Source: Bacteroidota bacterium
GTDB taxonomy: Bacteria; Bacteroidota; Bacteroidia; Bacteroidales; GCA-2748055
Assembly (NCBI GenBank): GCA_020047715.1
Contig: JAIFNN010000035.1
Coordinates: 1 to 45,966, forward strand
Direction of reading: 5' to 3'
Length of the DNA stretch: 45,966 nt
Position 1 is the stretch's first letter; every line of letters starts with the position of its first letter. Of the stretch, positions 38,652-43,135 are shown piece after piece. The notes under the pieces are model-generated. The model was not told where the DNA came from. It searched no databases and saw nothing but the letters and a program-made list of their open reading frames with translations. The translations under genes and the position numbers were made by a program.

Positions 38652-39083
38652 ATGTTACCAGCAAATCGAAGAGCAACATGGTTACCAAATGTATTAGACG
38701 ACATATTCGGTAACGATTGGTGGAGTGAGAGCCTGAACAGCGCTCTGACCTCCACAAGACCGGCAGTAAACATTGCCGAAACAGATCAGGAATACCGTGT
38801 GGAGCTTGCCGCACCGGGACTTGAAAAGAAGGATTTCAAAATCGACCTTCACAAAAACGTTCTTACGATCTCTTCCGAGAAGGAAGTTGTTAATGAGGAA
38901 AGCAACGAATCCTTCATGCGTAGGGAGTTCAGCTACAATTCCTTTAAACGCTCGTTTACATTGCCCGAAACTGTAAATGCCGAGAAGATCAGGGCGGAGC
39001 AGAGCAATGGAATCCTAACTGTTCATATTCCCAAGAAGCCGGAAGCTGTTGAAAGAGGCCCACGCCAAATCAGTATTTCATAA
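38652..39083 (+). CDS. Small heat shock protein, Hsp20/alpha-crystallin family
   Basis: A 143-residue cytoplasmic holdase that binds unfolding proteins without ATP. A short variable N-terminus carries the aromatic WSESLNSAL stretch. The alpha-crystallin domain (about residues 38-130) shows VNIAETDQEYRVELAAPGLEKKDF and the conserved NGILTVHIPK (A-x-x-n-G-v-L type motif, about 117-127). The C-terminal tail has an ISIS pattern close to the usual I-x-I/V docking motif. The gene has its own promoter, a strong Shine-Dalgarno and a good terminator. Confidence 0.96.
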   Translation: MLPANRRATWLPNVLDDIFGNDWWSESLNSALTSTRPAVNIAETDQEYRVELAAPGLEKKDFKIDLHKNVLTISSEKEVVNEESNESFMRREFSYNSFKRSFTLPETVNAEKIRAEQSNGILTVHIPKKPEAVERGPRQISIS

Positions 39084-39215: not shown

Positions 39216-39920
39216 CTAATCCACAATTAGTTTGTATCCTTTGCCGTGCACATTGATTATCTGCACAGAAGGGTCTTCTTTCAGATATTTGCGAAGTTTG
39301 GTAATGTAAACATCCATGCTGCGGGCATTGAAATAATTGTCGTCGAACCAGATTGCCTTTAGTGCATAATTTCGCTCAAGGATCCTGTTTTTGTTGTTGC
39401 AGAGAAGTTTAAGCAATTCGGTTTCCTTGGTGGTTAGATTCTGAATCTTTTCGCCAATAATAAGCGTTTGCTTCTGGGAGTCGAATTCGTATTTGCCGAT
39501 ATTCTTGCAATTGTTGATTCCTTCCCCGCCTCCTTTTATTCTTCTTAAAATGGCTTCAATTCTGAAAATCAGTTCCTCCATGCTGAAGGGCTTTGTAATA
39601 TAATCGTCGGCTCCCCTGGTGAATCCCTCAAGGACATCTTCTTTCATCGATTTGGCGGTGAGGAAAATGACAGGCATCTCCGAGTCAACCATCCTGATTT
39701 CGGAGGCCAATGTAAATCCGTCTTTCAGAGGCATCATTACATCCAGGATGCAGAGATCGTAATGGTTTTTTTCGAAAGCGCGAAAGGCCTTTTCTCCATC
39801 TTTAACCCAGTCGGCTTCAAAGTTTCTTGCTTTCAGGTATTCCTGGAGCAGCGAGCCCAGATTTTCATCATCCTCGGCCAACAAAAGCCGTACCTTAATA
39901 TTTTGTCCTGCGTTGCTCAT
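39216..39920 (-). CDS. rprY: OmpR-family response regulator, RprY-like
   Basis: A 234-residue DNA-binding response regulator. The receiver domain has the acidic pocket AEDDEN, phosphoacceptor Asp60 (CILDVMMP) and the conserved Lys (FLTAKS); the winged-helix domain ends with ITKLRKYLKEDPSVQIINVHGKGYKLIVD. The residues resemble Bacteroides RprY closely, including DDYITKPFSMEELIFRIEAILRR. In Bacteroides RprXY affects envelope and stress-related genes. Its ATG overlaps the rprX stop by four bases, so the pair is translationally coupled. Confidence 0.88.
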   Translation of the reverse strand: MSNAGQNIKVRLLLAEDDENLGSLLQEYLKARNFEADWVKDGEKAFRAFEKNHYDLCILDVMMPLKDGFTLASEIRMVDSEMPVIFLTAKSMKEDVLEGFTRGADDYITKPFSMEELIFRIEAILRRIKGGGEGINNCKNIGKYEFDSQKQTLIIGEKIQNLTTKETELLKLLCNNKNRILERNYALKAIWFDDNYFNARSMDVYITKLRKYLKEDPSVQIINVHGKGYKLIVD

Positions 39921-41503
39921 GATGTTGGGTCGATTAGGGGTAAATGTACTTCAAACCTGCTTCCTGAGCCAGGCTCACTGCTTATGGAAATGCTTCCGTG
40001 GTGAATTTCGGCAATCATTTTCACGTAACTCAAACCGAGCCCAAATCCCTTAACATTATGGATGTTTCCCGTGGGCACGCGATAGAATTTCTCGAAGATA
40101 CGCTTCTGGTTTTCCTTGGAAATCCCGATTCCCTTATCTTCCACTGACAGCACAATGTATGACTTCTCATTCCTTGTGATCACTGTTATTTCAGGTGTCT
40201 CACGACAATATTTCATGGCATTGTCGAGCAAATTGGAAACCAGGTTGGTGAAATGGATTTCGTCGATTCTTACGTGCGATAAGGAAGCTTCGGGGCGGTA
40301 AACAAGAATCCCGTTTTTCTTTTTAACCTGTAGGCTGAAATTGTTTACCACCGCTTCAACCAATTCATGAAGGTTCATGTCCTTTTCTTTCAGCACGATC
40401 TTGCCCCGGTCGAAAACCGCCATCTGCAGAACCTTTTCTACCTGATATCCTAATCGCTTGCTCTCCGCATCGATTATTCTGGAAATATGGACTATATTCT
40501 TGTTCTCAATGGGGATGCCCGGATCACTCAGCATTTGCGAGGCAAGCGAAATAGTCGAAATGGGGGTCTTCAACTCGTGGGTCATGTTGTTCACAAAATC
40601 ATTCTTGATCTCGGAAAGCTTTTTCTGGCGGAAAATCACAAAAAGGGTTATGCTGAAAATCGAGACGATAATCAGGGTGAGGATAATCGATGATACCCCC
40701 ATGAAACCTATGGACCGGATCATGAAGTTTTTCTGGTTCGGGAAGTACAGGCTTATGAAATTCGGGCGCATAAACACATCCTCCGGAAACAGACGGGCAG
40801 AATACATTGGAGTCTCTTTCGAGGGATTAAAGGACTTGGATTTGAAAGCAATGTTCCGGTCGGGCCTTACAACCGCGTATTCAAAGTGAAGGTTGATTCC
40901 TCTTTGTATGAATTCGTTGACGAGGATTTTCTCCAGGTTCTTTGAGTCGATCCGTTCCTCAATATGAACGCGGGGCCTGAGCATCTCCGAAACAACTTTT
41001 TCCACAAGCACCTGCTTGGTTTGGGCGTTGTTCTTCAGGTTGTTAGCCGCTACTTCCACTGCCTCATTTCCCGAATAATACTCGTCACGATAGGAATCAA
41101 GGAAGGGCTGGGATTCGGGAAGAACAATTTGCGAGCTGTCGTATCGCAGTCTGTAAGGTTTGTTTGTTCTCGGGGGAGTTGAACCATAAACGGTAAGGTT
41201 CTGGCTGAAGCTCATCTGTGTGCCGTTGCTGCTTGCATTGGCATCGAAGCGGAAATTAATGCTTCCCACGGCCTGACTGGAATCCGGATTCCAGTCGGGG
41301 TTCATCTGATCAATAATGTGCAGAAGGGTTTCCCTTTTCTCCAAAGCGAGGCTCAGTTCGTCGAGGGTGCTGTTCACTATCTGGGAAAACTGTTTTTCTT
41401 TAATGCTGATGGCAATATTGATCCAATACGCCTGAACCAGGATGAGAATAATCATCCCGATTGCCATAAACCCCGCCAGCAGCCATAAAAGTTTTTTGCT
41501 CAT
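39917..41503 (-). CDS. rprX: Sensor histidine kinase, RprX-like
   Basis: A 528-residue membrane kinase. Two transmembrane helices (about residues 5-27 and 265-290 in this numbering) frame a periplasmic sensor of about 240 residues. Then come the phospho-His (His309 in NNMTHELKTP), N box NLVSNLLDNAMKYC, G1 VEDKGIGIS, F box IFEKFYR and G2 GFGLGLSYV. The open frame begins at 41521, but a -7 promoter box lies inside that extension, so the ATG at 41503 (MSKKLLWLL) is taken. Partner of the RprY-like regulator. Signal unknown. Confidence 0.88.
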   Translation of the reverse strand: MSKKLLWLLAGFMAIGMIILILVQAYWINIAISIKEKQFSQIVNSTLDELSLALEKRETLLHIIDQMNPDWNPDSSQAVGSINFRFDANASSNGTQMSFSQNLTVYGSTPPRTNKPYRLRYDSSQIVLPESQPFLDSYRDEYYSGNEAVEVAANNLKNNAQTKQVLVEKVVSEMLRPRVHIEERIDSKNLEKILVNEFIQRGINLHFEYAVVRPDRNIAFKSKSFNPSKETPMYSARLFPEDVFMRPNFISLYFPNQKNFMIRSIGFMGVSSIILTLIIVSIFSITLFVIFRQKKLSEIKNDFVNNMTHELKTPISTISLASQMLSDPGIPIENKNIVHISRIIDAESKRLGYQVEKVLQMAVFDRGKIVLKEKDMNLHELVEAVVNNFSLQVKKKNGILVYRPEASLSHVRIDEIHFTNLVSNLLDNAMKYCRETPEITVITRNEKSYIVLSVEDKGIGISKENQKRIFEKFYRVPTGNIHNVKGFGLGLSYVKMIAEIHHGSISISSEPGSGSRFEVHLPLIDPTS

Positions 41504-41510
41504 AACTTTA

Positions 41511-41518
41511 CAAAGATA
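41511..41518 (-). promoter_or_regulatory. Putative -7 element of the rprX promoter
   Basis: Minus-strand TATCTTTG, an exact TAnnTTTG match, 7 bases before the rprX ATG. Transcription would then begin at or next to the start codon, giving a leaderless or nearly leaderless message. The -33 box is not clear. Confidence 0.45.
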
Positions 41519-41593
41519 CATTCATATTGACACGTCGGATTAATGTTTAACAATCTTTAACATTCCTTAGAATCTGTTAACTAAAGTTTGCCA

Positions 41594-41601
41594 TACATTT
41601 G
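41594..41601 (+). promoter_or_regulatory. Putative -7 element for the 41.6-kb small RNA
   Basis: TACATTTG, an exact TAnnTTTG match. No TTTG or TTG at the expected 17-19 base distance, so the call relies on the box and on the terminator 170 bases downstream. Confidence 0.4.
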
Positions 41602-41606
41602 TGACA

Positions 41607-41806
41607 TCAGAATTCAAACAAGTGCGAGTGTGGTTTCAAAGCGTCATCCCCTGAAACAGAAAGTCTGGACGAAAAAAAAATATCAGGATTTGAATTTGAT
41701 GTTAATAGGAATTAAATGGCAGTGATTATTCAGGAAAACTTTTCATAGATCAGCGTTTAGGTAGCGTGAAGCCGTTATGCTTAGTGATAAGCATGGCGGC
41801 TTTTTC
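41607..41806 (+). ncRNA. Candidate small RNA between rprX and the J-domain gene
   Basis: A plus-strand segment of about 200 bases between a -7-like box and a textbook terminator, with no ORF longer than a few codons. The only neighbouring plus-strand gene starts after the terminator, and rprX runs the other way, so the terminator has no protein gene to end. A hairpin GTTTCA/TGAAAC (41633-41638, 41652-41657) lies near the 5' end. Family unknown; it does not look like tmRNA, RNase P RNA or SRP RNA. It could be an sRNA coupled with rprX control. The 5' end is inferred. Confidence 0.45.
41770..41806 (+). terminator. Strong plus-strand terminator without a preceding plus-strand gene
   Basis: A 13-bp continuous stem with two G-U pairs (41770-41782 with 41789-41801), a 6-base loop AGTGAT, then a T-run. 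On the minus strand no T-run follows, so it acts on plus-strand transcripts. Confidence 0.88.
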
Positions 41807-41845
41807 TTTTTCGACACTTTGAAATGCGTGTTGTGTTAAAAACAG

Positions 41846-41853
41846 TATATTTG
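41846..41853 (+). promoter_or_regulatory. Putative -7 element of the J-domain gene
   Basis: TATATTTG, an exact TAnnTTTG match, 28 bases before the ATG at 41882. A TTTG lies 24 bases upstream, somewhat too far for a standard -33 box. Confidence 0.4.
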
Positions 41854-41881: not shown

Positions 41882-43135
41882 ATGTTTGAAAAGTATTACC
41901 AAACACTTGGCATCCCTGCCGATGCTGACGAAAAAACTCTCAAGAAGGCTTTCAGGAAACTAGCCCTGAAATCCCATCCCGATGTTAACAATTCCCCCGA
42001 TGCCGGCGAGCGTTTTCACGAACTTTGCGAAGCCTATGAAGTAGCTCTTCGCCACATCCAAAATCAAACTACTTTCCACACAAACCGGCAGTACCAAACA
42101 GAAGAAACCGACTATTCCTACGAGGATGTGATCCGCGAAGCCCGCGAGGCCGCTTACAAAAGGGCCAAGATGAAGTACGAAAAGATGAAGGCTGAACAGG
42201 AACTATTCGAGCAGAGCGGGTGGAGGGATGTGTTGCTTCTTTTTAATTATGCGGGCCGAATACTTGCGCTTCCACTGGCTCTTTTTTTTATCGGACTTCC
42301 CATTTTTATTGGCATAAAGGAAGGGATAGGCTTGTTTTTCGGACTTTTGTTTTTTTGGATTTTCGGGGGATACCTCCTTATTCAGATTTACATCTCACGA
42401 AAAAAATGGTTTCGGCAGGGAAAACTAAAGTGGACAACGAAGGATTTTTTTAAGCTGTTTGATTTTTCACCTCTCACCGATAATCCTCAGGCCGATTGTT
42501 ACTATAGCGATGGGAAAAGAGCTAATTCAGATCCTCACAAGCTGTCGTTTCACAAAATTCGTGAGGTTAAGCTGCAGAACAATGGTGTTTATCAGCACTA
42601 CGTGGGATATAAAAGGAAGTTTAAAGATGTTATTATACCCAGAAGTTGCAAGGCGCGGAAGGTACATTTTGCGGAATCGCTGATTAAAATCTTCAGCCTT
42701 TTTGGAAGTCTGATATTTGTGCCATTCCCGGATTTTATCTGGAGGTTTTGCTTTGGGCTTTTTCTTGGGGCACTTTTATCGTCGGCACTGTTATGTCTTA
42801 CGCGCACCCGCTCTAAAGTTTCCTTCCTTCTGAATTATTTCCTCCTGATCAAAGTTGGAGTTTGGATGGCATTTATTATCTCACAATCGACGCTGCATCC
42901 AGGGTTTATTCTCGAAAGTTCGATCTACACACCTTTCTATATTATGGTACTTATAGTTTTCGGGGATATGATACTGGATCTCTTGCTAAAGATCTTCCCT
43001 TTCTACAACAAACTTTACCAGCCAATCTTTCCACAAGGTCCTCTGATCGACAAGCTGTATAAAGAGGGCTATCAAAACTATCTCGATATCCCGGTGTGGT
43101 CAACGGTTTACCCCTTGTTCACTTGGCTGTTTTAA
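41882..43135 (+). CDS. Membrane-anchored J-domain protein
   Basis: A 417-residue protein with an N-terminal J domain (residues about 3-60) containing the HPD triad (KSHPDVN) that stimulates DnaK ATPase. A charged coiled coil follows (about 70-110). The rest is membrane protein: hydrophobic segments near 125-160, 258-300, 315-330 and 345-375. It lacks the Gly/Phe-rich, zinc-finger and substrate-binding parts of DnaJ, so it is a specialised J-protein that would recruit DnaK to a membrane site. The client is unknown. The final segment (YWNxxVPVWSxxYPLF-like, [17 protein letters not shown]) is unassigned. Confidence 0.85.

Follow-up and report, generated by a model that had tools for sequence, protein, structure and literature searches.

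A likely RprY-activated small RNA, encoded divergently from rprXY in a Bacteroidales genome, with predicted pairing to a SusC leader

We describe a small RNA unit that lies divergent from the two-component system genes rprXY in a draft genome of 254 contigs from an uncultured bacterium of the Bacteroidales, related to gut species. Our analysis supports, with a probability of roughly 0.72, that this unit encodes a trans-acting small RNA (sRNA) that is activated by RprY and blocks the translation of a SusC-type receptor. The promoter, the conservation of an operator and of the RNA, and a complementarity to SusC leaders that co-varies between genomes are all directly evident in the sequences that we compared. 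The features are listed in Table 1, in which positions are those of the window, that is, the whole stretch of 45,966 nucleotides that was analysed (G000:C140). The partner regulator of rprX is a true RprY, and an RprY-type response regulator adjoins the histidine kinase in the window. No report of an rprXY-linked sRNA, nor any paper joining rprXY with an sRNA, was found in the literature searched.

Table 1. Features of the rprXY region and of the divergent RNA unit in the window
Feature	Position	Strand	Basis or remark
rprY, OmpR-family response regulator	39216..39920	-	NF051850 RprY equivalog, 376.3 bits (curated cut-off 370)
rprX, sensor histidine kinase	39917..41521	-	HisKA and HATPase_c domains; linked to rprY
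-7 box TATCTTTG of rprX	41511..41518	-	CAAAnnTA, starting 34-36 bp before the operator in 42/44 loci
Operator, four 10-bp direct repeats TTTAACAATC TTTAACATTC CTTAGAATCT GTTAACTAAA	41546..41585	.	probable RprY site
-7 box TACATTTG (Bacteroidota TAnnTTTG) of the putative sRNA promoter	41594..41601	+	direct sequence; identical in the sister species
Putative sRNA gene, ~206 nt	41606..41811	+	start placed by the -7 box (estimate); T-run taken as the 3' end
Variable 5' part with weak hairpin	41602..41720	+	predicted fold; diverged in the sister species
Conserved 3' half (antisense element and terminator)	41721..41811	+	90/91 identical in the sister species
Antisense (seed) region, complementary to SusC leaders	41729..41768	+	duplex energy; whole-RNA scan
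Core of the seed	41739..41761	+	this genome and the sister species each have two complement matches, one the RNA and one a SusC start
Intrinsic terminator hairpin	41768..41803, tail TTCTTTTT to 41811	+	terminator prediction
DnaJ-domain protein gene, downstream neighbour outside the RNA	41882..43135	+	own -7 box TATATTTG at 41846-41853

The RNA unit and its conservation

A sequence-only reading of this DNA had pointed to a plus-strand terminator with a T-run where no plus-strand gene ends, and to an exact -7 box about 170 bases before it. Both claims held, as no gene on that strand was found to end at the terminator and the distance from the box is 174 bases. The stem, described there as 13 bp, was corrected to 16 pairs if G-U pairs are allowed (6 are G-C, and the loop is of 4 bases). 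This hairpin is the strongest in the stretch, yet alone it is weak evidence, because generic terminator and sigma-70 scans of the region gave no enrichment over shuffles (7 terminators vs. 9.5 expected), and the case therefore rests on comparison with relatives. A transcript of about 200 bases without a coding frame had also been claimed, which held as far as the sequence can tell, since the predicted RNA has no usable reading frame. The sole longer plus-strand frame (45 aa, from a TTG at 41588) begins before the promoter box, and a coding RNA was rejected on that basis. That the RNA is transcribed, and its exact 5' end, are inferred from sequence alone.

The RNA was not recognised as a member of a known family. 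A tRNA/tmRNA search found none, and Rfam gave no match in the window at the gathering threshold, although the release may be without FopS, an sRNA of Bacteroides thetaiotaomicron that is stated to have been deposited in Rfam (PMC11697453). At a relaxed threshold nothing relevant was found in the window and seven other loci. Rfam families (6S, tmRNA, and others) were consequently rejected as the identity of the RNA for want of a match.

Comparison with a sister species of the same genus (G001, locus L062) revealed the unit at the same place, with 86% identity overall. This identity was distributed unevenly: 38/40 in the operator, 8/8 in the -7 box, 59/70 in the spacer to the next gene, and, within the RNA, 89/118 in the 5' half and 90/91 in the 3' half. 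The surroundings of the 3' half differ by 16-25% between the two species, and a single change in 91 bases is very unlikely at that local rate, which indicates strong constraint on the 3' half. The RNA unit is real and conserved beyond chance. Conservation of the terminator and a 5' hairpin next to rprXY had been suggested as a check on the sequence-only reading. The terminator proved to be conserved and the 5' hairpin poorly so, and the latter was dropped as a conserved part since the 5' part diverges in the sister species, where a different fold is predicted. Conservation of the terminator only, as part of another gene, would have refuted that reading, and this was not observed.

In a plain blastn search of the RNA against 100 relatives, the sister species was the sole clear homologue and other matches were short. 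TTTTAGGGTT hardly varies among 15 aligned relatives, and the predicted 5' stem and the terminator are kept. No compensatory base changes were found when structure covariation was sought in relatives.

Several observations concern the neighbouring genes. The RNA is not the leader of the DnaJ-domain gene, because that gene has its own TATATTTG box, which is preserved in the sister species. In the interval 41501-41521 (minus strand), the longest rprX frame begins at 41521, upstream of the gene's own -7 box (41511-41518). Translation probably starts instead from the Met at 41503, which would give a nearly leaderless mRNA; this, too, is inferred from the sequence. Near rprXY, at 38652-39083 on the plus strand, lies a gene for a small heat-shock (Hsp20-like) protein, so named by sequence, in keeping with a stress theme of the neighbourhood. 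Viral contigs were searched for relatives of the kinase, and none were found.

The operator and the rprX loci

The operator is situated between the rprX box on the minus strand and the promoter box of the RNA. We examined 81 rprX loci, consisting of the window and 80 rprX loci, and in 44 of them the first repeat lies exactly 48 bp before TAnnTTTG, while strict repeat matches at any other single distance occurred in no more than 4 loci. The consensus retains all four repeats. On the other side, the rprX box is 34-36 bp from the operator in 42 of these 44 loci. The operator and -7 box at this fixed spacing have one match in the window's own genome. In 100 relatives, most genomes of the window's family have a single match to the full pattern, which lies at rprX in every case where we compared coordinates; its reversed control gave 0 matches in the 100 genomes. 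That RprY reads the operator is inferred, there being no binding data, and the RprY paper that we examined gives no motif. Direct repeats of 10 bp suit dimers of OmpR-family regulators.

What follows the shared promoter differs between loci. About 30 of the 44, judged by eye, have an RNA whose 3' end is formed by a hairpin with a T-run; a sequence of the type CATAGGTTTATATTTTAGGGTTA directly precedes this hairpin. In about 13 of the 44, a small secreted protein is encoded from the same promoter instead of the RNA. The sequence-only reading had proposed that an RNA back to back with a two-component system is made under the same signal. This is supported by our comparative data, because the operator stands between the divergent promoters at a fixed distance to both in 42 rprX loci and because an RNA with a terminator is present at about 30 of them; control by RprY is nevertheless an inference.

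The small secreted protein (L063, L065-L069, L073-L075, L086, L099, L105, and L113) is divergent from rprX, placed as CpxP is beside cpxRA, and is often EITIQVKKDGKVVKDTTYQFDD-like; the one that was tested had no Pfam match. Neither the RNA nor this protein was seen at the Prevotella, Bacteroides, and Tannerella rprX loci inspected, and the Prevotella and Bacteroides loci are without the operator. A similar operator-like pattern was noted before genes for MoxR-type ATPases, named by eye from sequence, in distant families (L281, L282, L305, L307, and L310). It is possible that these genes are another part of the regulon.

Complementarity to SusC leaders

A target among SusC mRNAs had not been proposed in the sequence-only reading. 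It came to light through a short blast match in another genome (G009, L029), which led to a SusC leader of which the conserved stretch is the reverse complement. The same holds in the window, where the reverse complement of the conserved block corresponds to a SusC leader with its start codon, CCTAAA...ATCTATGAAAAG. Two segments form the core of the block: CTTTTCATAGAT (41739-41750), complementary to the sequence across the start codon, and TTTAGG (41756-41761), complementary to CCTAAA in the leader. The pattern CCTAAAN{3,14}ATCTATGAAAAG was present in 18/18 genomes of the family and 0/11 others, and its reversed control had no matches. Every match that we examined belonged either to a SusC-type gene or to an antisense unit that has a terminator. 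In the window's own genome the pattern has two occurrences, one being the RNA and the other a SusC gene on contig 143 (G000:C143; TIGR04056, 550 bits), whose leader follows a TAnnTTTG box.

The predicted duplex of the seed region with this leader has an energy of -24.7 kcal/mol, and 0 of 1000 dinucleotide shuffles were as good. We tested 17 pairs (our own and 16 others from 14 further genomes); all were in the best 2.2% of shuffles or better, and all other pairs of family f1 likewise beat all 1000 shuffles. In a scan of the whole RNA, pairing peaked at 40-nt windows starting at 41726-41741, and the SusC match is confined to the conserved block. The seed and the SusC leader vary together, with cognate pairs beating swapped pairs in an eight-by-eight table (p = 0.0035). 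At one locus (L070), the pairing extends into the SusC coding sequence. These comparisons concern sequence; that the two RNAs pair in the cell, and that repression results, is inferred.

To rank targets, we used a set of 529 start regions drawn as a sample from the window's own genome. The longest Watson-Crick run, of 12, was with the SusC leader, which was top of the 529. By raw duplex energy the SusC leader was only 7th, and 1st was a GlgB-like gene (L244:3-1637, minus strand), the start region of which gave -30.8 with the RNA and whose Bacteroides relative is 65% identical. The seed is only partially accessible in the predicted fold. At L071, L072, L096, L102, and L119, the seed keeps the part complementary to the leader without the anti-start part, and for the seed GTTTCATAGTGTTTTGGTTA of L092 and L098 the best imperfect matches in their genomes were not at SusC starts. 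When whole SusC loci were searched for duplexes with the start left free, only long-loop noise resulted, and this approach was rejected.

Further RNA-like units were observed away from rprX. A second anti-SusC RNA, with the seed CTTTTCATAGATTTAGTTT(T)AGGGTTAG, a terminator, and TTTAACA-type repeats upstream, occurs in genera g2 and g4, mostly between glycosyltransferase-like and argS-like genes (names taken from N-terminal sequence only). It lies at about position 1500 of L172, L173, L174, L176, L178, L186, L188, L189, L194, and L195. One genome (G090; L311, L312, and L314) has three paralogous RNAs in separate places with the same operator and seed, the rest having diverged. This pattern fits selection on the operator and seed, because the three share these but little else. 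L276, from the genome of L098, is an RNA-like unit with the seed TTTTCATAGTTTTTAGGTT and a terminator, and suggests the possibility that there are several anti-leader RNAs per genome.

Known systems, rival explanations, and a proposed circuit

The closest functional parallel is FopS, for which a block of susC translation was shown by EMSA, in-line probing, and in-vitro translation (PMC11697453). Like FopS, the rprX-linked RNA is trans-encoded, has an antisense stretch and a terminator, and is, by prediction, antisense to a susC start region. In contrast, FopS is 65-70 nt with its seed at the 5' end, whereas the rprX-linked RNA of the window has ~206 nt, its counterparts in other genomes being shorter, and carries its seed just before the terminator, ~123 nt from the predicted 5' end. 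FopS also has 12-15 copies per genome and has been described in Bacteroidaceae, whereas one copy was found here, a count based on one antisense match to the seed complement and one operator match that would miss copies with different seeds. Lastly, FopS has no reported link to rprXY, while this RNA adjoins rprX with a conserved operator. As the 5' seed, length, and copy number do not agree, we class the RNA as working like FopS but not as a member of that family.

GibS of Bacteroides pairs at target start regions and represses the glucan-branching enzyme BT_0771 (PMC7366714; PMC11697453), of B. thetaiotaomicron; our best raw-energy match is likewise a gene for a branching enzyme, the GlgB-like one. 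GibS differs in being 145 nt, with an extended 5' seed and a place beside glycogen genes, and in having its highest level with N-acetylglucosamine and a non-canonical promoter (PMC7366714). A gibS neighbour beside glgB was not seen in the stretch checked of one Bacteroides genome. The DonS antisense RNAs of Bacteroides fragilis are named in both papers (PMC11697453; PMC7366714). DonS small RNAs act on susC-type operons and are cis-encoded beside their own polysaccharide locus, a feature that is unmet here, as the matching SusC gene is on another contig and the RNA beside rprX is trans-encoded.

In enterobacteria, envelope regulators have sRNAs that repress outer-membrane proteins, namely OmrA/OmrB (OmpR), CpxQ (Cpx), and MicA/RybB (sigma E), and cpxP is divergent from cpxRA much as the RNA unit is from rprXY. 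Those sRNAs are unrelated in sequence, Hfq-dependent, and from another phylum; classic sRNA chaperones are not known in Bacteroidota. That the rprX-linked RNA works in the same manner is an argument by analogy, in which control by the regulator and repression at the start codon are inferred. When B. fragilis rprXY was expressed in Escherichia coli, ompF expression fell (quoted in PMC3646045).

We considered four rival explanations. The RNA could be a real sRNA whose antisense stretch acts on a general translation leader (CCTAAA...CTATGAAA) shared by many genes, envelope and metabolic, with SusC as just one partner, or it could titrate a leader-binding protein, e.g., an RbpB-like RRM protein. 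In favour of this rival, leader pieces are common to several SusC genes and lipoprotein genes, the GlgB-like gene gives the best raw energy, and the genome has one RRM protein gene (RNA binding by its product is not established). The co-variation of seed and SusC leader across genomes and the pairing into the SusC coding region at L070 favour a specific SusC partner, and we consider the rival, in its two forms taken together, unlikely. Also improbable, in our judgement, is that a different regulator, and not RprY, acts on the operator of a real RNA, which would then have no tie to the RprX signal. In favour of this are the absence of direct evidence for binding, the occurrence of similar repeats ahead of moxR-type genes in distant families, and the Prevotella and Bacteroides loci that have rprX without the operator. 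Against this, the operator holds a fixed distance to both divergent promoters at 42 of 44 rprX loci, and its repeats have the 10-bp period suited to OmpR-family dimers.

We give still less weight to the proposal that the complementarity is coincidental and the RNA has another function. A+T-rich sequence near ATGAAAA is common, the shared core is short, and run lengths are only moderate in several genomes. However, dinucleotide-preserving shuffles fall short in the window's own genome, the pattern has no reversed-control matches, and conservation peaks at the antisense block and terminator. The last rival, in which the hairpin would attenuate the DnaJ-domain gene from within its leader and would not end an independent RNA, can be all but excluded. 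That gene does start on the same strand, 71 bases beyond the tail, but its -7 box comes after the terminator and is kept in the sister species, and the RNA unit stays at other loci while the downstream sequence differs.

In the reading that we prefer, RprX would sense an envelope signal, the nature of that stress signal being an inference, and RprY would activate both its own operon and the RNA through the four direct repeats, which may stand in for a -33 element. The RNA would then be made together with rprXY whenever RprX/RprY is on. Its 3' half, the antisense stretch followed by the terminator, is predicted to pair with the 5' leader and start codon of the mRNA for a SusC-type TonB-dependent receptor, and probably also with other mRNAs that have a like leader, e.g., that of the GlgB-like branching enzyme. 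Such pairing would block ribosome access and lower receptor synthesis under envelope stress.

A bolder hypothesis is that this is a Bacteroidales circuit in which one RprY-driven divergent promoter has a product that alternates by lineage, a small secreted protein or a SusC-repressing sRNA, with the seed co-evolving with SusC leaders. We regard this as having as much chance of being wrong as of being right. If true, it would be the Bacteroidota counterpart of the OmpR, Cpx, and sigma E sRNA circuits, in a phylum where knowledge of envelope-stress circuits is sparse. Bile salts raise FopS levels, and the authors of that study suggest an unknown transcriptional regulator (PMC11697453); RprY, again if the hypothesis is true, would be a candidate for the regulator that drives anti-SusC sRNAs under membrane stress. 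With its predictable SusC target, a widely conserved RNA next to rprXY would give this two-component system an output, one in which stress sensing may be joined to nutrient uptake, and it makes the question of how anti-SusC sRNAs are regulated a testable one.
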